From the NCBI GenBank assembly GCA_033439765.1, contig JAULSN010000001.1, positions 7,192,001 through 7,256,000 of the forward strand: DNA of 64,000 nt, read 5' to 3'. The DNA is from Lasiosphaeria ovina (Eukaryota > Ascomycota > Sordariomycetes > Sordariales > Lasiosphaeriaceae). A program made the translations under genes and the position numbers. The notes below the pieces were generated by a model. The model ran no database searches and was not told where the DNA came from. It saw only the letters and a program-made list of their open reading frames with translations. Of this stretch, positions 9,010-35,190 are shown piece by piece; position 1 is the stretch's first letter; each line of letters opens with the position of its first letter.

Positions 9010-10252
9010 ATGAAGCTCACACAGTCGGCTGTGTTGGCGTTTGCCGCGTCGGCTCTCGCCGCCCCATCGTCGACGACCCAGCAGGAGCCCCGGAAGGTCG
9101 CCGCCGCCTGCTCGTCGGCCGTCTCCCTCGATGCCAGCACCAACGTCTTCAAGAAGTACACCCTCCACGCCAACAAGTTCTACCGTGATGAGGTCACCGC
9201 CGCCGTCTCGGCCCTGAGCGACTCGAGCCTTGCGTCTGCCGCTGCCGCGGTCGCCGATGTTGGCACCTTCTTGTGGATCGATACCATTGCCAACATTGCC
9301 AAGATCGAGCCCGCCCTTGCCGACGTACCGTGCGACCACATCCTGGGTCTGGTCATCTACGATCTCCCCGGCCGTGATTGCGCCGCCAAGGCCTCCAACG
9401 GCGAGCTGAAGGTTGGCGAGATCAGCAAGTACAAGTCGCAGTACATCGACCGTGAGTATTCATCCCCTCTCCAGAAAAGAGTTTGCTTGCTGACATTGTC
9501 CGGCAGCTATCGTCAAGCTCATCAAGGCGTACCCTAACACCGCCTTCGCGCTCGTCATTGAGCCCGATTCGCTGCCCAACCTTGTCACCAACGCCGACAA
9601 GGACGCGTGCAAGCAGAGCGCCACCGGTTACCGCGATGGTGTCTCATATGCGCTCAAGAACCTCAACCTTCCCAACGTCGTCATGTACATCGACGCTGGA
9701 CACGGCGGCTGGCTCGGCTGGGATGCCAACCTCAAGCCCGGCGCCCAGGAGCTGGCCAAGGCCTACACCTCAGCCGGAAAGCCCAAGCAGTTCCGTGGCA
9801 TCTCCACCAACGTCGCTGGCTGGAACGCCTGGGACCTGAGCCCCGGCGAGTTCTCGACGGCGTCTGACGCCAAGTACAACAAGTGCCAGAACGAGAAGAT
9901 CTACGTGACGACGTTTGGCGCCGCGCTCAAGACGGCCGGCATGCCCAACCACGCCATCATCGACACTGGCCGTAACGGCGTCACCGGCCTGCGCAAGGAG
10001 TGGGGTGACTGGTGCAACGTCCAGGGCGCCGGCTTCGGCGTGCGCCCCACGGCTGACACTGGCACCGAGCTCGCCGATGCCTTTGTGTGGATCAAGCCCG
10101 GCGGTGAGTCGGACGGCACCAGCGACACGTCGGCCAACCGCTACGACAGCTTCTGCGGCAAGGACGACGCCTTCAAGCCCGCCCCCGAGGCCGGTACCTG
10201 GAACCAGGAGTACTTTGAGGATCTCATCAAGAACGCCAACCCGAGCTTCTAA
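9010..10252 (+). CDS. secreted GH6 cellulase without CBM1 (395 aa, 2 exons)
   Basis: Exons 9010-9451 and 9507-10252 join across a 55-nt GTGAGT-CAG intron (YID|P|IVKLIK). Residues 1-18 are a signal peptide ending ALAA. The rest is a complete glycoside hydrolase family 6 catalytic domain. Active-site landmarks are the GRDC loop (Asp123, like Asp175 of Trichoderma Cel6A), VIEPDSL (Asp168, like the acid Asp221) and the KPGGESDGTSD loop near the end, which carries the candidate base. There is no fungal cellulose-binding module and no Ser/Thr linker. That matches the CBM-less Cel6C-type branch of Sordariales rather than classical CBH II. The role is hydrolysis of beta-1,4-glucan outside the cell. 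Whether it is an exo- or endo-enzyme depends on two active-site loops that cannot be judged by eye. Confidence 0.95.
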
Positions 10253-15185: not shown

Positions 15186-17782
15186 TCACCGGCGAGTCGG
15201 CAACCGACCGATTTGCGTTCGAATATAATCCTGCCGCTTCTCGTCATCCCACTCCAGGAGAGGCCACGGAGCAATGTAGTAACGGTTGTTCCCGCGAGAA
15301 ACGCCGATCCCTTTGAGAATCTGAAGAATGCCCCTTCGGGTGTGGATATGCCTCCTGACGTTTTCGTCGAAGATGCCGCTCTCGGCGACGTATTGCTGGA
15401 TGAGTGCCACGATCCCAGCCATGATGACGGTCGCGGGGGAACATCCCGACATGGTCATGTCGTCGCTGGACAAGTCGTACGGCACCTGATGGCCGAGCGT
15501 CCCGTAGAGAGGGCTGCCCTCGTTCCACGGCGCCGGTGGAGGATCGTACGAGCCGTAGAATCCGCCGTGGTGCTCCGTTCCGCGGACGGATATGACGTAC
15601 TCCATGAAGGCCGGGAACATTTCTTGTCCGTTCGATCCTTCGTTCGATGCCGCGGCAAGGAAGACGAGGGAACCCCCCTTGATGCTATCGGCTTGCTGCA
15701 TTGCCGTGGAGATTTGCGCCACTTCGTCAGGGAATCCAAATGCCATCGATATGATGTCAACATCCCATGCCTTGACCGCGTGTAGTATAGCCTGAATTGG
15801 TTAAAATACGCGCAGGAAAGAGCTTGTGCGAGAGCACGTTACCTCGGCCACGTTCTCCTGTGCCTCGGCCAACTCGTCCTTGCTTCTCGCGACGCGGACG
15901 ACGAATATTTCGCATGTTCTGACCATCCTCATGAGCAGGGTCGTGAGGGCCGTGCCATGGCCGTCCTCGTCTATGGGTGTAGGCACGCCGCTAACGAGGT
16001 CGTGCCAGCGGCCGACGAGACGGTTCTCATCGCCTGGCACGACGTTGAAGTACTCTGCCTCAAGACTGCAGCCAGTGTCAAGAATCGCGATCTTGACCGG
16101 GGCCGACGAATGACCGTGCTTACGGCCACTTTTGATGCAATCAACTCGCTCAAGCCACTTGATGGGCCCTGCATCCTACGCAGGGTCGTCAGGACATGTT
16201 CTTCTCTGCTCCCGGTTCCCAGCCCACCTACCTGAGTTCTCTTGCGAGTAGGTTTCGAGACGAGTGCTCTGACGGGCATCAACTGGTCGAGCACCGAGAC
16301 GGAATGTTTGATGTCGGCGAGGAACTGCCGGCACGAGTCCAAGGTGAAGTCTTCCCGGACCACGACCCTAAGTAGCTTGAGATTGGCGGCGTGCGGTGCC
16401 ATGTTGAAGGCCGGCACGACCCAGCCGCGACCGCGCAGCTGATCAGCGACAGAAAATTCGTCATAGTGCCTTTCTTGATCGGGCGGCAGGCGGAAGGCAA
16501 CGACGGGGACGCCTAAGCCAGACTTTTTGCTCATGATGATAAAGCCCAACATCTCGAGACAATCGCTGAGGGAATCAGCCATCTTCGTCAGGAATGACAT
16601 GACGGTCCGGTAGCCTTTCTTGCCGCGGCGTACTAGCTGGTAGTACTGCCCGACGATGTGGCTGGCGCTCGTAGAGTTGTTAAGAGTAAAAGATGCCCGG
16701 TTGGTGTCGAAGAAGTCGTTGTTGAAGTCTAATTCCTGCGGTACGTACTCCCGAGAGCGCCAGATGACCCAGTCAACGCAGGAGGACACAAACCCGTACT
16801 GTCCGCGTGGTTAGCTGTGTATCGAGGTGGGGGACTGTATCTCATGGAACGAACCCTGTGACTGGAAACGTTGATGGACGCGACCCTCTCCAGCCTAAAA
16901 TCCCACTCAAAGGCCGGGTCGACGAACGGGACGACGAACGCTCCAATGGCAGCATCGACATGGATGGGAACAGTGGAAGCCGTCTTGACAAGATAGTCGT
17001 TGACGGCTTTGACGTCCTCGTACTCGCCCGTGTATTCGGTCCCTAGGATGACACAGATTCCGATGATGTTCTCGTCCACCATGGCTACGGCGTCGGTGGG
17101 GTCCATCGTATAGCGCTCGTGTGTACAATAGACGAGCTTCTCCTCAATTTCAAAGTAGCGAGCGGCCTTTCTCCAGCCCACCTGGGTGGCGGAGCTCATG
17201 ATAATGTTGGGCCGATCCGGGCTTCTGCCAGTCGCGAGCCTATGGTTCCGCCAGCGCTTCTTCATTGCTACGACGGCCAGCATGATCGCCTCGGACGTGC
17301 CACCACACGAGATGCCGACGCACGAGCCGAGAGCAGATTCGGGAGCGTGGAAGAGACGGCCCATCATGCAGACGCAGCGGCTCTGGATGTCGGCGACGCC
17401 GGGGGAGTTGATGTCGTTCTTGGCAGAGGACTCGGCTACGAGCTTTTCGGCTTCTTCGTCCTGCTGCATATCAGCCAGTATCCCGGCGCACCGAGGGAAA
17501 AGCGCGGGAAAGGGCTACCGCGAAGGTAGTGGCGTCGAAAGAGGAAATGCTAGAAGAACGCGAGATGAGCATGGTGAGTTCCAAATTTGAAGCTGGCTCG
17601 GTTCACTTTCGCGAAAGATCGCCGTCCAACTTGAGCTTGACCTTGATCAAGCGGGAGACGATTTCCTCGGGCATTTCCGCCTCGGGCATTTCGTTCTTGG
17701 GGAGCTGGGGCTGGGCTGCAAATCCATAGCGAGCAGCGCTGGGGTCGATAACTGTACTGAACATGTCATGGAAGTCGTCCAT
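15186..17782 (-). CDS. glutamate-decarboxylase-like domain fused to S8 subtilisin-like protease (773 aa, 6 exons)
   Basis: Exons on minus: 17782-17607, 17549-17519, 17463-16855, 16798-16232, 16175-15843, 15791-15186. The five introns (51-57 nt) are GT-AG; the donors differ in strength (GTAGGT strong, GTTCGT weak). They join in frame to 773 residues. Residues 1-461 align by eye along nearly the whole of group II PLP glutamate decarboxylase, from the EMPEAEMPEEI segment to LRVVVREDFT. The PLP lysine of SGHKYGL is Arg272 (SSHRYGF) and DAASGGF is DAAIGAF (Asp239 kept). Residues 462-773 are an S8 subtilase with ILDTG (Asp494), DGHGT (His534), oxyanion Asn622 in AASNEG and SGCSPAT (Ser690). The fourth intron joins the halves without a stop, and the protease half has no own ATG before its Asp and His. 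No signal peptide, so probably cytosolic. It is head-to-head with a gasdermin-like gene, as expected for a HET-Q2-type activator. The activity of the first half as a decarboxylase is doubtful. Confidence 0.85.
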
Positions 17783-18284
17783 GACAGGCGTTGGGGACGA
17801 GAGACGTCGCTCTAGATAGGTTGACTACCCAGGGACCTAGTCAGGATACAAGGAGCGAGTCGAGAGGGGTTTTCGAGGGACGTTCAGCTCGTGCTGGCAG
17901 ATCAGGAGAGGGTCCGGAGGGGCAGTAGGTATTGACGAGGGCGCCTCTTCGGGATTTGCGCCGGTCCAATCGAGACGAAACACGTCGAGCACGCCGCAGT
18001 ACACAGTACTGTACCCTCGGCATCACGATATGAGAAAATGGTCTGATTGGCTGGCGAGGAGTTAAATTCAAAAACTGGAGTTTCCCTATTTCTCTCTCTT
18101 TTTGCCACTGGAGAATTCCACATCTTTGCTCCTTCTGCGCCGTTGCTCGACTGACAAACGCTACTTCAAGATCTGAACCTGAAAACGGGGTTGGCGAGTA
18201 CTCTGGCCGAGAGACTCGTCCAAAGACCTTGCGAACCTACAGAGTTGCAACGCTCTGACCGCGGCTTTCGCATCGATTACCGCC
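17783..18284. promoter_or_regulatory. divergent promoter between protease fusion and gasdermin-like gene
   Basis: These 502 bases lie between two start codons facing away from each other, so both genes are probably expressed from this one interval. No TATA box at a convincing position or known operator motif was recognised. Confidence 0.5.
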
Positions 18285-19121
18285 ATGTCGTCGGTGCAGA
18301 ACCCGACGTATCTGCTGGCGCCGAACTGGGATTTCCGTCCCGGCGGACCAATCGCTCTGGGTAACATCGTTGCGGACCCCTTCAGGCCGCACAAGGTCCT
18401 ATCCCGGGCGGCTGGGCCGCTGCCGCTCACGGAGACCATTCTCCACGCGGACTGGAGCCTGCGCACCGGATCGGCCCGCAGCGTCCATGCGAGCATCTGG
18501 GCCGTCTTTTTCGACGCTGTCGGGGTCGACCTCCTTGCGGCGCGGAGTCAGGCGACCGTGGACAACTACTCGATGCGGGAGCTCGAGACCACTTACTTCG
18601 TCGACGATCCGCCGACCGAGGACATTGTCAAGCGCATCAAGGATGACCCCAAGGTGTCGAAGCTGATGCGTCTCGACAGCGTGTTCTGCAGGCCCGTCTA
18701 CATGATCACGGGCATCAAGACAGCCAAGGGATTCATGCTGAGGAGCGAGCGGTCGGCAAACGTAATTGTGGACGGCGCCGTGTCGGCGCCTGTTGCGGCG
18801 GGTGGGCCGTCCGTCGGAGGCGGCGCTGGAGTCTCGGCCGAGACGTCCCTGGCCCACGGCCTTACCTCCCCGCAGGACATCGTCTTTGCGTACCAGCTAC
18901 TAAAGATCTCGCCGCGAGGATGGAACAAGAAAACGTTCAAGCTTTCTGAATACCAATCGAAGGCGACGTTCCTGAGCGACGACGCAACAGAGGAGGTGGT
19001 GCCAATCGTTGTCGAAATCACACACGCAACTTCCAACGACTTTGTCGACGCAGGGAGCGTGAAGAGTACTTGCGTCGTAGCCGGGACGGCCATCGTTACC
19101 CCTGGGGACAGAGAGGCGTAG
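18285..19121 (+). CDS. gasdermin-like cell-death effector (HET-Q1/RCD-1 type, 278 aa)
   Basis: Single exon, 278 residues, no signal peptide. The N-terminus WDFRPGGPIALGNIVADPFRP matches what I know of fungal gasdermin-like proteins: a Trp-x-Phe-x-Pro start, then GPIxLGNIIADP. After an alternating strand/helix body there is a Gly/Ala-rich stretch (about 164-185, GGPSVGGGAG). The length equals that recalled for Podospora HET-Q1. In that family the N-terminal part forms membrane pores after a short C-terminal tail of a few kDa is cut off by the partner protease; RCD-1 of Neurospora acts by allelic incompatibility instead. The tail here (from about 215) contains FKLSEYQ and TFLSDD segments, which are candidate cut regions, but no site can be assigned. 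The divergent S8 protease gene next door strongly supports the call. The alternative is an unrelated orphan; only structure prediction would exclude it. Confidence 0.75.
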   Translation: MSSVQNPTYLLAPNWDFRPGGPIALGNIVADPFRPHKVLSRAAGPLPLTETILHADWSLRTGSARSVHASIWAVFFDAVGVDLLAARSQATVDNYSMRELETTYFVDDPPTEDIVKRIKDDPKVSKLMRLDSVFCRPVYMITGIKTAKGFMLRSERSANVIVDGAVSAPVAAGGPSVGGGAGVSAETSLAHGLTSPQDIVFAYQLLKISPRGWNKKTFKLSEYQSKATFLSDDATEEVVPIVVEITHATSNDFVDAGSVKSTCVVAGTAIVTPGDREA

Positions 19122-19800: not shown

Positions 19801-20164
19801 TGAACCGTTTTGACTCCCTTTTGGTGGCTATTTCAGGCTCTATCGCCGGCAGCATTGTTATCGGACAAGGAGAGACGGCATGGGTAGGCCCCGTGTCATC
19901 CAACTATCCCGATTATCAACACTATCGTTGACCCGGAACTGGTAAGGCATCCGGATGACACAGCCTCTCCCGAGGGATTACCCCCGGGAGAGCAACACTG
20001 GTACCCTCTAAGAGACAGACGAAACGGCAATTCCACTGGCAAAATTACAACACAATGAAGATTGAGACGGCACACGCAACTGACCTTGGTGGAAAGCATT
20101 GGCTGAATCCTAAGGCTTCTGAGGTAACATTTTTAGGACGCTAAAGTAGAGACATCGGATTCGA

Positions 20165-20609
20165 CTAACGTGCGTGATAAGCGAGTTAGCCAGACAAGCG
20201 AGCTAGCCACTTCAACTTCTCATATATAACCCTGAGAATATATCTTTATAAAAGTCATCTAATTCTTAGTAAAAACTTCTAAAAACTTCAAACTTGTAAT
20301 ATAAGTATATAATATGAGTAAAAATGTATACCATTACTTGCTGACTAATTTAGCCTTGAAAAACGGAATATAACCCTAGGGTTATATATGTAGGCAAGAT
20401 TGTAACTACAAGTTTACTATCTTATACTTAGTGTAAAATTTTACATAAAATCATAATAAGTTTCTTCATTATTATAAACCCTAATATCAAATCTCGGGGC
20501 CTTTTACTAAGGTTTGGTGATTTTAGCAAGGGTTAAATTTCAGGGTTATGTTAGGGAAATCGGGTGGCTAACTCGCTTGTCTGGCTAACTCGCTTATCAC
20601 GCACGTTAG
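20165..20609. mobile_element. TIR element of 445 bp, MITE-like
   Basis: Bases 20165-20210 and 20564-20609 are inverted repeats of 46 nt with a single mismatch. Each arm starts ctaacgtgcgtgataagcga and contains two variants of gcgagttagcc. The outer CTA...TAG allows a TA target duplication with arms beginning ACGTGCG, as in Tc1/mariner (pogo/Fot1-type) elements. The interior is very AT-rich (TTA/TAA runs), has no open frame and looks mutated by repeat-induced point mutation. It is therefore non-autonomous. Confidence 0.8.
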
Positions 20610-21060
20610 CTTTTTTCGGACCTTTAAGGGCAAGAACATGAGGTTCGTTTTCAAGAAGGAACAATTTTAAATAGTCCACCGTTACGTATAGAACAAATAG
20701 GAGGACTTGGCGCGGGGTTTTCCCAGCTCGTCGTTTTCAAAATTGACAGCCGGAATAGGCGTATGTATTAGAGGTATTAATGATTAAGCCTCATTTAAGG
20801 CACATTTCCTAGGCCCAGTTCTTGGCCATCCACACATTGTTCTAGGATCTCCGGCCGGAGGCCTCAAGAGGCTCGTATAGTAATTGTAGCAATATGTCAC
20901 GGAGTGCCCTCGTGGGTTTAGCTGGCGGTAACTCACATTAGATCCACTTGAGCGGCAGAATTTCAGCCAAACTGGAATTTCTTCTACAGTAGCCGCTCTT
21001 TTTCCTTTTTACTTTTTCTCTCTAGCTTACAATTAACTACAGCGATACCTCCTTTTGTAA

Positions 21061-24853: not shown

Positions 24854-26646
24854 TCAGGCACGAACCTCAGCTGTCGTCGCAGCAGCCGTCTTCTCCTCCA
24901 CCGGAATGTCGGCGTCATCTTCACCAGCCAAGTGGCGAGCCTTGGCCGTAGCGGCGTCGCCACCGACAATCGCAGCATCACCATCAAAGAACTTGACAAT
25001 TTCTTCGAGGGCCGTGTTCTTGGTCTCAATGTAATACTTCCAGACGACAAGCAGCTCAAAGGCAAGCCAGACGCAATACACGAGGTAATACTTCCAGGCA
25101 ATGGCCTCGAGGGCGATGGGGTTGACGTATTGGTTGAACCACAAGCTGAGGTCGACGCAGAAGAACATGACGGTGAGGCCCTTGGCACGGATCCGGTACG
25201 GCAGAATCTCGGTCGAGTACGAGACCAAGAGGCCGCAGAATCCCAGGTTGTACATGACGTAGTAAACGAAGATGAACACGATGACGGTGTTGGCAGCCGC
25301 CGAGCTCTGGTCCACATCGTACCGAGCCAGAGCAATCGTCGTGGAGACGAATGCAGCAAGCATACCGAGGCAGGAGGTGATGAAGAGCGGGCGGCGGCCA
25401 ATCTTGTCGACGAAGAAGCAAATCCCAACAGCCGAGATAAGCTGGACAATGGACAGGTAGCCGTTGATCTCCAGAACCAAAGTGGAATCGGTGATGCCGA
25501 TCAACTTCAGCACCTGGGGCAGGAAGTATGAGACAATACCGTTGCCAGACCACTGGGAGAAGAAGCCGATGGATACCAATATGATGAGGCGATGGCGGTT
25601 GCCGGGAGTAGCCCACAGCTCGCTCCAAGCCGACTTCTCGTACTCCTGTTCCAAGGCAATGGTCTGCTGGATTTCGTTGAATTCGACATTGACGAGGTCG
25701 TCGTCGAGATTGCCCTCGGCATGGACATTGGCGAGGATTTGCTTCGCCTTTGCATGTCTCCCCTTGGAAATAAGCCATCTGGGAGATTCGGGCACAGTCC
25801 AAATGAATATCATCTGGACGATCGATGGGAGCGCCTGCAGGAGACACGGTACACGCCAAGACCACTGGCCATCGAGCTTGTCGGTGCCGAAAGCGACCCA
25901 AGACCCAACCAGAGAGCCGAGATACCACAAGGTGTTGTAAATGGTGCTATAGATGGCACGATGCTGGGGATGGACGAGCTCGGCAATCAGGAGTGGCGCA
26001 GACCCCTATTGGAGGCTTGGGTTAGTGGCCAATCATTCCAGAAGCGAGCATGTAAAGAAGTGGGGAGCGGGAGTAAACTTACATGAGCAATGGCAATGCC
26101 GAAACCCAGGATGAGGCGGCCGATGATGAACAGAGCAACATGAAAGCCGATGCAGATTAGTGCAACGCCGACGATCATGATGGCACAGCCAATCACGACG
26201 CCTGTTCGACGACCCAGAATGTCGGCAGTATAGGGGACGACGGGGATTGCAAGAAGAGAGCCAATGGACATGGAGGCGGCGATGAGACCGAGGATTTGAC
26301 CATTGGGGTTGTTGAAGTCTGGAGGTAACGCGAGGTGAGCATTGCGAAGAGAGATACCATGACAGGATTGGGAACGGGCGGTTCTCACTCTCGTTCCATG
26401 CCGCGATAGCCTGGAGGCCATTCATGAGAGACCCATCATAACCTGGACAAGGTGCGTGTTAGCAACGGGTCGTTCGTTCACTTGGTGCAATCATCACATG
26501 GAGGAGTGGCCAAGCAGCTCACCGTTTGTGGCCGAGGTCAACATGGCAGCCCAGAGAGTCAAGTAGACGGTGCGCATGTTCTTCAGCTTCCACCAAGTGA
26601 CTTTGGGCCAGTCGCGGCCGGCGAGCTCGAAAGTGTCCTTGCCCAT
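24854..26646 (-). CDS. MFS sugar transporter, SP family (521 aa, 4 exons)
   Basis: Exons on minus: 26646-26523, 26442-26389, 26318-26083, 26005-24854. The introns are GT-AG (70-80 nt). The joined protein has the full twelve-segment layout of the sugar porter family. Signatures are GYDGSLMNGLQ in the first helix, the DILGRRTGV loop between TM2 and TM3, PESPRWLISKGR before the central loop, DKIGRRPLF after TM8 and the IETKNTALEEI version of PETKG after TM12. The C-terminal tail is acidic/alanine-rich and cytosolic. It resembles fungal lactose/hexose permease-type transporters, and a plasma-membrane proton/sugar symporter is the likely role. The sugar cannot be read from sequence. It is intact, with the start chosen at MGKDTFEL because this precedes the first helix at usual distance. 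Confidence 0.92.
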
Positions 26647-30079: not shown

Positions 30080-31239
30080 TTACTTTGCTGGAAGATGAAA
30101 AGAAATGGAAATGGAGATGGAAATGCTCGAACGTTTTGCGAACATGTATATGAATTGACCGAAAGACACGGGGCAGCGGAGTGAATATATAGGTGAACGG
30201 TCCGTAGGTAGGCTGCCTGCCAAGGGCGCGGACTGTGTGGAATACCTGTGTCGCTGTCGGGGGCTATCGTTCTTAGCTTGTCGAATTTAGCCCGTGCGCT
30301 TACCACCCCGCCCAATCAGACCCCTGCCTCCAGGCGTAAGGGTTGATCGATTCCGCCTTGCTTCATTCCCTTTATTTTCCCCGGTATGACCGCGTACCGT
30401 AGTAAGCTATTAACAAAAACAAAGCGGACTGTAAAATGCCAGTATTCCGTGCTAGTAGCTATGACTAACAGCCCCTACCAATTCTTCAACAGCTCTGCTA
30501 AGTGAGCAGATGGATTCGATGGTAGTGCCACAGCCATCAGGTGGGTAGGTGGGGGGGGTACCGGTACCTGTGTTTGTCCAGAAAAGTAGCCTGCTTAAAG
30601 GTACTGTCAAGTGAAGAGTCCGCCCCTTTTTTAATTGTTCTTTCCCGGCCCAGCTACTGGTAAAATTTCGAACTCAAGCTCAAACGCGAAACGCGGCGCA
30701 ACGATTTGCTTTAGTAGTCAATTGAGTTTTGTTGCAGATTCGGCTTTTTGGCCGCAGCCGCGTTGAGTTCGCCTCATTACATAGCAATGAGGGCGGCGAC
30801 CCAGCGTGATCCTACAGTGCCCCGAGAATAACTGATCGTCGACGCCGTCCCTGCGCCAACAACACCTCCGGCAACTCTTCCTTTCTTAGTGTCAATTTCG
30901 TCTGCCTTGATATCCATCACCATGCTGGGCCTGGAGTCTTCAGTTCTCCAGAGACTTGGGCTGGGAGGGCGGTGTGGCCACAACACGACATGGTTGGCTG
31001 CAGCCGTTGCAGCCTCACGACAAAAGCCTCGTCGCATTCAGCTAACCCCGCCACCACACACCTTCTCACGACCTTGGGGTTTCCCTTCCACGCCGACGGG
31101 TCTACGAGAGCTCCTTCGATCGACACTCCCTCACCTGCAGCGCCCGGCTCATCATCACCACAGGTAGCTGAAGTCCTCCCCTACCGCCGACCGCACAGCA
31201 CCCAAACCCCCTACAAAGCCGTGGCCCCAGAGCCTCACA
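30080..31239. other. intergenic/upstream region of the NLR gene
   Basis: No gene is recognised. A G-run followed by ggtaccggtacc lies near 30550-30570. The last few hundred bases are C-rich and pyrimidine-biased, as expected for the 5' leader of the NLR gene. Confidence 0.35.
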
Positions 31240-34200
31240 ATGGATCCCCTCAGCACCATCGCGTCCACGATCGCGATCATCCAGGCCATCTCCTCGACAT
31301 ATAAGGCCATCCAACACCTCAGAGGCCTCCCGAAAATATTTGAAGATGTGAACCAAAGGCTTCCTCTTGTGGAATACACCCTGACTCTGGCCCACGGCAT
31401 GGTCCTAGACGAATCGTCAAGAAAGATCATCGGGCCGGTCATTGGTCGTTGCGAAGAGAAGGCTGAGGCATTGCGTGACATCTTCCAGGAAGTGGAAAAG
31501 CGTAAAAACGAGGCGAATGATCGGCCAGCCTACGATATCTTTCTCGCCATGTCAAGTTTGGGCAAAGCAAATCAGGCAAAGACCCTGATGCAGGAAATAG
31601 AGGGCAGCTTGGTAGAATTGTCTACCGTCCAGTCGCTTAGGATGGCAACAACACAGGACCAGATGGGCAAGTTGGAGAAAGCCATCCATGAGCTATCTTG
31701 CGGGGCCGACCACGACACTCGGAGGATAGCTATCCTCAAGACCCTCCACACCTCGCCATATCTGGATCGAAAGAATAGGAATCCAGATAGGGTCCCGGGG
31801 ACGTGCGAGTGGTTCGTCAATCACCAGCTTTTTCGAAAATGGCAAGAGAGCAGCTCCTCCAGCATGCTCTGGGTCTCCGCAGATCCTGGGTGCGGGAAAT
31901 CCGTCTTGGCAAGGCATCTGGTAGACTCTGAGCTTCGGACTACCACATCCAGAACCACCTGCTATTTCTTCTTCAAGGACGACTTCGATGATCAGAGAAG
32001 CGCGAAAAGCGCCCTTTGCTGCATCTTACACCAACTCTTTACGCAAAGAGAGATCCTCTTCTCCAGTGAGATCGTTAAGCGGTTCGAAGCCCGCGAAATA
32101 CACCTTACCGACTCGTTTGACGAACTCTGGGAGGTCCTTATTATGGCTTCACAGGACAAGAATGCTGGCGAGATAGTCTGTATTCTTGACGCCTTTGACG
32201 AATGTGAAGACCAAGAACAATCTATGCTCGCCCAAGCCCTGTGCAAACTATATCGAACCGAGAAGGCCCTTAACCTGAAGTTTCTCATTACAAGTCGGCC
32301 CCACGGCACTATCCGACGGGGTTTCCAGCCTCTCGATATGCCAGGGTTACCTCTTATCCATTTGAGTGGGGAAAGCGAAGTTGAGACGGACAAGATTGCC
32401 CGAGAGATCGATATCTATATACGCGCCAGGGTCCAGAGCATCCGAGACCGTCTGACTCTTAGTCTAGACGATGAACAGCTGCTCTTACAAGGGCTTCTGC
32501 GTACCCCAAACCGGACTTATCTGTGGGTTCATCTCACCATGGATTTAGTCCAGGATGACATTGGCATCAATAAAGTTGGGATACGCAAGGCCGTTTCCTC
32601 CCTTCCGCCAACCGTCGACCACGCATACGAGGGTATCCTGAACAGGAGTCACAATCCCGAAGAAGCCAAGAAACTATTACATGTTGTCGTCGGGGCAGCA
32701 CGGCCTTTGACCCTAGCGGAAATGGCCGTAGCGCTGGCTCTCCAACCAGACCACCGGTCTTATGAAGACCTGGACCTCAAAGCTGATAAGCGCTTCCGTG
32801 AATATGTGAGAGACCTTTGCGGCCTCTTTATCACCATTACCGACTCCAAGATATACCTCCTTCACCAGACCGCGAGAGAATTCCTTGTCCAGGATGACCC
32901 TTCAAAAGGGGTCCACCGGAAAAAGCGCCGTTTGAGAGAAGCCCGACCGAAAAGTAATGATGATGAACTAAGGTGGAAATCCTCACTCCAGCCACGGGAG
33001 TCCCACCGCATTCTTTGCCAGATCTGTGTTTGGCATCTGCTCTTTACTGAGTTCGAGACCCACTCTCTGGATGAGAACGAGATATTATCTCAATACCTTG
33101 GTCACGTCTTTCTTGACTACTCTGCTAAAAACTGGGCTTCTCACTCCCGCGGGTCTGGTATCGAGGATGATGACGCAATCACGGACTCACTGCTAGCGAT
33201 TTGCGATGCGCGGACAAGACGTTGTCTAACTTGGTTTAGAATCTACTGGGCGGACACCAAGGCAGATTTCCCTCAGAACTTCACAACCCTCATGATTGCT
33301 TCTTATTTTGGACTGGAGCGGGTTGTGAAACTGCTGCTTAAAAGAGATGATGTCGAAGTAAACTCCCTTGACGGCACATATCGGCGCTCGGCGCTCTCTT
33401 GGGCTTCAGAGAATGGGTTTGACGGCGTTGTGAAGCTGTTGATCAGGGGCCCTAAATTTCACTTCAGACACCTCGCCAGATCACCATTTTGGAAAGGCAC
33501 GGATGTCGACGTGGGAGATAGATACGGTCGAACACCTCTATCATATGCTGCTTGGAATGGACACATGGCCATCACCCGGCGGCTTGTCAGGGCAAAAGCC
33601 CGCGTCGATTCAGTGGACGAAATTGGGGGAACGCCAATATCCTACGCCCTTTGCAGTGGGCATGAAGTTGTAGCTAACAAACTGATGAAAGGAGCCCGGG
33701 CCGGCTCAGTGGAGGTGATTAGTCGGGAATTACTTACTTCCGCTGCCGGGAAAGGCCATAAGACTATCGTTGAACGGCTGCTTGAGAAAGGGGCGAATAT
33801 GAAGGCGGCGGGTGACGATGGCCGGACAGCACTACGGGCAGCTGCCTATAGCGGGCATATGGCCATCGTGCGGCTACTCCTCGAGAAAGGGGCGAATATA
33901 GAGGCGAGGGGTACCGATGGCCGGACAGTACTATACTTAGCTACCGAGAGGGGGCACGAGGCCGTCGTGCGGCTACTCCTCGAGAAAAGGGCGAATATAG
34001 AGGCGAGTGGTGGCGATGGCCGGACAGCACTACGCGCAGCTGCCGGGAGCGGGCACGAGGCCGTCGTGCGGCTACTCCTCGAGAAAGGGGCGAATATGGA
34101 GGCCGTAGGTGGTTACTATAGCCGGACAGCACTATGGTCAGCTGCCTATTGGGGGCACGAGGCCGTCGTACGGCTACTCCTCGAGAAAGGGGCGAATATA

Positions 34201-35190
34201 GAGGCGAGGGGTACCGATGGCCGGACAGTACTATACTTAGCTACCAAGAGGGGGCACGAGGCCGTCGTGCGGCTACTCGTCGAGAAAGGAGCGAATATAG
34301 AGGCGAGGGGTAACGATGGCCAGACAGTACTACGCGTAGCTGCCGAGAGCGGGCACGAGGCCGTCCTGCGGCTACTCCTTGAGAAAGGGGCGAATATAGA
34401 GGCGAGGGGTAACGATGGCCGGACAGCACTATGGTTAGCTGCCTATTGGGGGCACGAGGCCGTCGTGCGGCTACTCCTCGAGAAAGGGGCGAATATGGAG
34501 GCGAGGGGTGATGATGGCCGGACAGCACTATACGTAGCCACCGAGAGATGGCACGAGGCCGTCGTGCGGCTACTCCTCAAGAAAGGGGCGAATATGGAGG
34601 CGAGGGGTGACGATGGCCGGACAGCACTACGGGCAGCTGCCTATAGCGGGCATATGGCCATCGTGCGGCTACTCCTCGAGAAAGGGGCGAATATAGAGGC
34701 GAGGGGTAATGATGGCTGGACAGCGCTATGCGTAGCTACCGAGAGCAGGCGCGAGGCCGTCGTGCGGCTACTCCTTGAGAAAGGGGCGAATATGGAGGCG
34801 AAGGGTGACGATGGCCGGACAGCACTATGGCTAGCTGCCCATTGGGGGCACGAGGCCGTCGTGCGGCTACTCCTCAAGAAAGGGGCGAATATAGAGGCGG
34901 CGGGTGGTTACTATAGCCGGATAGCAATATGCGTAGCTGCTAATAGCGGGCACGAGGCCGTCGTGCGGCTACTCCTCGAGAAAGGGGCGAATATAGAGGC
35001 GAGGGGTAACGATGGCCGGACAGCACTATGGTTAGCTGCCTATTGGGGGCACGAGGCCGTCGTGCGGCTACTCCTCGAGAAAGGGGCGAATATGGAGGCG
35101 AGGGGTGATGATGGCCGGACAGCACTATACGTAGCTGCCGAGAGGGGGCACGGGGCCGTCGTGCGGCTACTCCAACCCCATCGTCTTTAA
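31240..35190 (+). CDS. NLR-type protein: SesA-like N-terminal domain, NACHT NTPase, ankyrin repeats (1316 aa)
   Basis: Uninterrupted 1316-codon exon. Residues 1 to about 150 form an all-helical N-terminal domain starting MDPLSTIASTIAIIQAIS, like the SesA/NACHT-N death-fold family of fungal STAND proteins. The NACHT core has a P-loop in WVSADPGCGKSVLARHL (about 213-225), Walker B ILDAFDECED (about 315-325) and the following FLITSRPH. A winged-helix region follows, then degenerate ankyrin repeats (about 685-840) and 14 nearly identical 33-34-residue repeats. In fungi such proteins oligomerise on ligand binding by the repeats and trigger incompatibility or defence. The last repeat breaks off after VVRLLQPHRL without a capping repeat, so the array may have been truncated or rearranged. 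No signs of repeat-induced mutation in the repeats. Confidence 0.93.
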   Translation: MDPLSTIASTIAIIQAISSTYKAIQHLRGLPKIFEDVNQRLPLVEYTLTLAHGMVLDESSRKIIGPVIGRCEEKAEALRDIFQEVEKRKNEANDRPAYDIFLAMSSLGKANQAKTLMQEIEGSLVELSTVQSLRMATTQDQMGKLEKAIHELSCGADHDTRRIAILKTLHTSPYLDRKNRNPDRVPGTCEWFVNHQLFRKWQESSSSSMLWVSADPGCGKSVLARHLVDSELRTTTSRTTCYFFFKDDFDDQRSAKSALCCILHQLFTQREILFSSEIVKRFEAREIHLTDSFDELWEVLIMASQDKNAGEIVCILDAFDECEDQEQSMLAQALCKLYRTEKALNLKFLITSRPHGTIRRGFQPLDMPGLPLIHLSGESEVETDKIAREIDIYIRARVQSIRDRLTLSLDDEQLLLQGLLRTPNRTYLWVHLTMDLVQDDIGINKVGIRKAVSSLPPTVDHAYEGILNRSHNPEEAKKLLHVVVGAARPLTLAEMAVALALQPDHRSYEDLDLKADKRFREYVRDLCGLFITITDSKIYLLHQTAREFLVQDDPSKGVHRKKRRLREARPKSNDDELRWKSSLQPRESHRILCQICVWHLLFTEFETHSLDENEILSQYLGHVFLDYSAKNWASHSRGSGIEDDDAITDSLLAICDARTRRCLTWFRIYWADTKADFPQNFTTLMIASYFGLERVVKLLLKRDDVEVNSLDGTYRRSALSWASENGFDGVVKLLIRGPKFHFRHLARSPFWKGTDVDVGDRYGRTPLSYAAWNGHMAITRRLVRAKARVDSVDEIGGTPISYALCSGHEVVANKLMKGARAGSVEVISRELLTSAAGKGHKTIVERLLEKGANMKAAGDDGRTALRAAAYSGHMAIVRLLLEKGANIEARGTDGRTVLYLATERGHEAVVRLLLEKRANIEASGGDGRTALRAAAGSGHEAVVRLLLEKGANMEAVGGYYSRTALWSAAYWGHEAVVRLLLEKGANIEARGTDGRTVLYLATKRGHEAVVRLLVEKGANIEARGNDGQTVLRVAAESGHEAVLRLLLEKGANIEARGNDGRTALWLAAYWGHEAVVRLLLEKGANMEARGDDGRTALYVATERWHEAVVRLLLKKGANMEARGDDGRTALRAAAYSGHMAIVRLLLEKGANIEARGNDGWTALCVATESRREAVVRLLLEKGANMEAKGDDGRTALWLAAHWGHEAVVRLLLKKGANIEAAGGYYSRIAICVAANSGHEAVVRLLLEKGANIEARGNDGRTALWLAAYWGHEAVVRLLLEKGANMEARGDDGRTALYVAAERGHGAVVRLLQPHRL
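33769..35182 (+). repeat. 14 near-identical ankyrin-encoding repeats of 99-102 bp
   Basis: Each unit reads GADVVRLLLEKGANIEARG-type sequence at the DNA level (cgtgcggctactcctcgaga, gaaaggggcgaatatagagg). Most units are 99 bp. Two contain GGYYSR instead of GDDGR and are 102 bp. Differences concentrate in the few codons between TAL and GHEAVV (RAAAYS, YLATER, WLAAYW, CVATES and so on). A block of about 1.7 units at 34381-34545 recurs almost exactly at 34979-35140, which points to recent duplication or gene conversion. Confidence 0.92.

Follow-up and report, generated by a model that had tools for sequence, protein, structure and literature searches.

A gasdermin gene of Lasiosphaeria ovina next to a subtilisin-like protease gene that carries an apparently dead glutamate decarboxylase: a likely cell-death module

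What sets off a gasdermin-based cell-death switch in a fungus, and could a former metabolic enzyme be the part that does so? A 2025 review describes the activation of fungal cell-death sensors as a major open question and names repeats, parts of NLRs and kinase-like domains as receptor halves (PMC12881547). According to PMC10197012, about 80% of gasdermin genes in fungi occur in a cluster with a protease gene, and about 63% with a gene of the S8 family. In Podospora anserina the gasdermin HET-Q1 has 278 residues and HET-Q2 is an S8 protease of 388 residues, which is thought to cut HET-Q1 at F238 and to remove 40 residues, or about 5 kDa (PMC10989679). The locus discussed here lies in a stretch of 64,000 nucleotides of L. 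ovina (bases 7192001-7256000 of contig C1, JAULSN010000001.1), which is called the window throughout, and contains a gasdermin-like gene and an S8 protease gene arranged head to head.

The gasdermin gene (18285..19121, plus strand) is complete in a single exon of 278 codons, without any intron, and encodes a protein of 278 residues. From its start codon to that of the minus-strand gene there are 502 bp (17783..18284), which could possibly serve as a shared bidirectional promoter. The original prediction had described an intact S8 gene and an intact 278-codon gene separated by this distance; the coordinates are exact and both frames are open. It had also named the gasdermin fold beforehand as a check, and the fold is present: the predicted structure is that of the gasdermin pore-forming part (pLDDT 53.9, which is low, with the C-terminal part uncertain), and its closest structural match is Neurospora RCD-1. 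Searches with the sequence alone match neither a Pfam family (E <= 1) nor a PDB chain (E <= 10). The pore-forming part comprises residues ~1-225, and the C-terminal part (residues ~226-278) is variable in sequence comparison and of low confidence in the model. HET-Q1 resembles the window gasdermin in having a short variable C-terminal part (PMC10989679) as well as the same length. By analogy with HET-Q1, our best guess for a candidate cleavage site is Phe229, and a hypothetical cut after this residue would give a fragment with a computed mass of 4,987 Da. RCD-1, unlike HET-Q1, is described as becoming active uncleaved, on meeting its other allelic form (PMC12881547).

Several other features were seen around the pair. 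An AT-rich stretch (20180-20480) lies downstream of the gasdermin gene, and 20001-21000, with 40% GC, is the lowest 1-kb bin. Parts of a GH6 glycosyl hydrolase gene (9494-10249, plus strand) and of a sugar transporter gene (24857-26005, minus strand) flank the locus. About 12 kb from the pair there is an open frame of 1340 residues (31168-35187, plus strand) of NLR type, with SesA, NACHT/NPHP3_N and many ankyrin repeats.

The minus-strand gene was modelled with six exons, from an ATG at 17782 to a stop at 15186, and is open over 773 codons. Its five introns, all GT-AG and 51-57 nt long, are consistent in phase. Introns as short as these, along with the gene content, point to a filamentous ascomycete. 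Exon 1 (17607..17782; all exons of this gene are on the minus strand) encodes the N-terminus of a glutamate decarboxylase (GAD) domain and rests on the splice model and on tblastn against the organism's own GAD; exon 2 (17519..17549), from the splice model, is a micro-exon of 31 nt with a counterpart in the own GAD gene. The GAD core is in exon 3 (16855..17463), identified by Pfam PF00282 and by alignment, and its last codon is that of Arg272 (16857-16855). Exon 4 (16232..16798), based on the splice model, Pfam and the match to solved structures, encodes the remaining GAD domain and a linker. Intron 4 of the splice model (16176..16231) marks the junction between GAD and S8. The S8 domain follows in exon 5 (15843..16175), with Asp494 (16079-16077) and His534 (15959-15957), and in exon 6 (15186..15791; Pfam PF00082), with Asn622 (15644-15642), Ser690 (15440-15438) and the stop. 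Two Pfam families, both over the Pfam cut-off, are the only ones that the 773-residue protein matches at E <= 0.1: PF00282, pyridoxal-dependent decarboxylase (residues 88-376, E 1.2e-49), and PF00082, subtilase (residues 488-721, E 2.5e-10). At this threshold there is no NACHT or NB-ARC.

Is this one gene? The splice sites are predicted from the genomic sequence, and GAD and S8 could in principle be independent neighbours that were wrongly joined and that lie near a gasdermin by chance. However, there is a stop immediately upstream of 16175 and no Met ahead of the triad Asp and His, so the S8 frame is not self-standing, and two separate genes were rejected on this ground. Just 56 nt of intron separate the GAD and S8 frames, and the number of gasdermin-like loci near S8 loci in this genome, given below, argues against chance vicinity. 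We regard wrong joining and chance vicinity as an extremely improbable explanation of the locus. A GAD half with a broken start was also considered and ruled out, as the micro-exon modelled on the own GAD keeps the frame with no base altered.

The S8 part is only weakly similar to solved subtilisins (best E 2.3e-5), and in the pairwise alignment the Asp and Ser positions line up and those of the His motif do not. When six S8 parts from this genome are aligned, Asp494, His534, Asn622 and Ser690 are in the expected columns, and on this alignment the domain is an S8 protease with an intact catalytic triad. The last S8 intron (15792-15842, minus strand) may be an old one in this family of proteases; at L026, L029 and L030, three related loci in this genome, the S8 frame is interrupted there too, and that of a fourth, L025, is intronless at this place.

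The original prediction also called for the co-occurrence of the two genes in relatives to be looked at, and here it was examined inside the L. ovina genome (51.7 Mb in 32 contigs). At least seven gasdermin-like loci were found, and at least 32 Pfam S8 pieces, which were merged to at least 25 loci. Of the seven gasdermin-like loci found, five have an S8 locus within 3 kb (binomial P 1.2e-11 at a per-gene chance of 0.0036) and six within 10 kb (binomial P 8.5e-12); these P values treat the pairs as independent, and the pairs may share one ancestral pair. Two weaker matches, C27:5575058 (E 0.0034) and C30:2659141 (E 0.024), were excluded from the seven and neither is near a merged S8 locus; with both added the tally is 5 of 9. 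The adjacency of gasdermin and S8 genes exceeds chance, and the nearest relatives of the window S8 part in this genome adjoin other gasdermin-like loci. Their orientations vary: the window pair is head to head, those at L025, L029 and L030 are convergent, and the two genes at L026 run in the same direction. In a Pfam scan of the sister proteases at L025, L026, L029 and L030, DUF7580 was found ahead of the S8 part in L025, L026 and L030, although in L030 the match is below the cut-off and in a separate upstream frame; the upstream frame of L029 has no Pfam family. L025, L026 and L030 are like the window protease in their S8 family and in adjoining a gasdermin-like locus, and unlike it in having DUF7580 where the window protein has GAD. 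The L030 pair (C30:612900-622800) looks decayed on both sides, with only a C-terminal piece of the gasdermin and a Gly in the catalytic-Asp column of the protease. Co-divergence of gasdermin and S8 was tried as support for the pairing and dropped; over five loci there is no significant correlation, and 27 of 120 permutations reach the observed value. At L027 the gasdermin has its closest S8 locus 9.2 kb away and is adjoined by an open frame (L027 2021-3220, plus strand) that by eye is HET-domain-like. The nearest S8 locus to the gasdermin-like locus L028 (C12:6201124) is 2.8 Mb off, and no protease was seen by eye in its long ORFs.

What is the domain ahead of the protease? It had been predicted that the protease carries a new regulatory domain. 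The domain is real, and it can be identified as a glutamate decarboxylase without the catalytic lysine. Its closest solved relative is Arabidopsis glutamate decarboxylase 1 (3hbx; E 5.2e-108, residues 23-449 on 23-450), followed by E. coli GadA and GadB. The organism's own GAD gene (L031, on contig C28) is 68, 58 and 59% identical to the GAD half in three exon matches and has three introns in common with it: a phase-2 intron ahead of the micro-exon, a phase-0 intron behind it, and a third that directly follows the catalytic-lysine codon. The next intron of the own GAD is missing from the window gene. The common intron positions indicate that the GAD half derives from a duplicated GAD gene and not from a retrocopy. 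From its sequence, the GAD half is a duplicate of a GAD gene that was joined at an intron to an S8 protease, and this protease appears to belong to the family whose sister members carry DUF7580.

The GAD half was compared with four sequences, the own GAD on C28, the longest frame of an own GAD-like gene on C32, Arabidopsis GAD1 and E. coli GadA. Of 116 columns that are invariant in these four, 32 are altered in the window protein. The PLP-binding lysine, Lys276 in the E. coli numbering used here, is Lys in all four and is replaced by Arg272. Other changes are Asp86 to Asn88, Ser126 to Thr125, Thr212 to Glu212 and Phe317 to Asn313, and Glu89-Tyr90 are absent, which shortens the Asp86 loop. The equivalents of Ser127, Gln163, Asp243, Ala245, Ser273, His275 and Ser318 are preserved. 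We take Asp243, Thr212 and Phe317 to be residues with roles in GAD. The change of Lys276 to Arg272 should by itself be enough to abolish catalysis, and the GAD half appears to have lost it. In E. coli GadB, Thr62, Phe63, Cys64 and Asp86 contact the gamma-carboxyl group (PMC9814759). Asp86Asn alone would not be lethal to the enzyme, because an enzyme with Asp86Asn and His465Ala is reported to retain activity (PMC12961736).

The GAD half may still bind PLP non-covalently, and this leads to a reading in which it is a metabolite sensor that holds non-covalent PLP or a PLP-amino-acid adduct, so that the protease, and through it the gasdermin, would respond to vitamin B6 or glutamate status. Most of the seven preserved residues contact PLP in E. 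coli GadB, where Gln163, Ala245, two serines, Ser273, His275 and Ser318 are given as contacts (PMC9814759; the two serines are numbered 127/128 there and 126/127 in this analysis). However, with the altered equivalents of Lys276, Thr212, Ser126 and Phe317 and the shorter Asp86 loop, PLP binding by the window protein is putative, and we regard a sensor of this kind as improbable.

Is the GAD half simply decaying? It has changed fast: with Arabidopsis GAD1 as outgroup there are 71 lineage-only changes in the window GAD and 13 in the own GAD, and in 128 columns that are invariant in three outgroups the window GAD departs 41 times and the own GAD 12 times. The 453 aligned GAD codons contain zero stops, against a mean of 12.9 and a minimum of 4 in 500 neutral simulations at the same divergence under an equal-rate model with substitutions only. 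Identities between window GAD and own GAD at the three codon positions are 0.71, 0.76 and 0.49, and NG86 gives dN 0.32 and dS 1.51; both sets of values average the two lineages. We read these sequence data as altered rather than missing constraint on the GAD half, and its fast change is compatible with relaxed constraint too. A decaying relic, with the GAD fusion as a broken receptor that has no present function, would agree with the fast change and with the decayed look of the paralogous L030 pair. Nevertheless, the two window genes have open frames, the protease keeps its triad and the simulations never reach zero stops, and a relic is very unlikely.

We consider it likely that the locus is a two-gene fungal regulated-cell-death module, consisting of a gasdermin and a linked Q2L-type S8 protease with an apparently dead GAD as its receptor. 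As in other Q2L proteases, an S8 domain with its triad is present and a gasdermin gene lies within 10 kb, here at 502 bp. The proposal that the pair forms a gasdermin/protease cell-death module is supported by the fold, the triad and the adjacency. That the window protease cuts the window gasdermin is suggested by the precedent of HET-Q1 and HET-Q2 (PMC10989679).

How might such a module work? The GAD half would be the receptor. Because GADs work as oligomers, it would probably keep the protease oligomeric and silent. A non-self or parasite-derived protein that alters the GAD assembly is put forward tentatively as the trigger; the real GAD and a bound ligand, either PLP-like or an amino acid, are doubtful candidates even when taken jointly. 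The change in assembly would set the protease free or bring it together, and the protease would then cut near the gasdermin C-terminus, at best guess after Phe229, and release ~5.0 kDa. The N-terminal part would form pores in the plasma membrane, and the compartment would die. It has to be weighed whether the GAD half is instead a mere oligomerising scaffold, or a partner of the own GAD, with no recognition of its own and the trigger elsewhere. E. coli GadB assembles into a homohexamer (PMC12961736), and the working-looking GAD paralogue on C28 could be such a partner. Rapid change of the domain would be unexpected for a pure scaffold, however, and we think this explanation unlikely.

A gasdermin with a linked protease is already a known kind of module; what appears to be new here is the receptor half. 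Like the Podospora pair, the window pair consists of a gasdermin gene linked to an S8 gene. HET-Q2 has 388 residues, whereas the window protease has 773 with the putative dead GAD ahead, and its cleavage of the gasdermin is predicted. Multidomain Q2L proteases, like the window protease, combine S8 with an extra putative sensor domain and lie no more than 10 kb from a gasdermin gene (PMC10197012, PMC12881547). PMC10197012 gives 18 architectures of Q2L proteins in about one third of some 1500 sequences, with ANK, TPR or WD40 repeats as the most common partners and some NLRs. The window receptor half has a GAD fold instead of these or of a kinase-like domain. Neither PMC12881547 nor PMC10197012 uses the word "decarboxylase" in its main text, and no description of a GAD-S8 fusion was found in literature on gasdermin, glutamate decarboxylase and fungi, a comparison to which the 18 architectures of Clave et al. 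2022 are external.

Dead decarboxylase paralogues as regulators have parallels. Antizyme inhibitor and trypanosome prozyme are pseudo-decarboxylases that regulate by protein contact; they resemble the GAD half in this respect and differ in having neither a protease nor a gasdermin. The apparently dead GAD may possibly act as an integrated decoy, though this is far from assured: a copy of a housekeeping PLP enzyme that has lost its catalysis, keeps its shape and is fused to an executioner protease. An invader protein aimed at the fungal GAD, or a hetero-oligomer with a foreign GAD, would then fire the gasdermin directly. If this is true, the protein would be a fungal counterpart of the integrated domains of plant NLRs, without an NLR. 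At this locus a cell-suicide switch is probably triggered by way of a dead metabolic enzyme. The receptor half has an enzyme fold that can be recognised, its structure, assembly and ligand are known and an intact paralogue exists in the same genome, and this makes the question of the trigger directly testable, with PLP, glutamate, a foreign protein or the real GAD as the partner.
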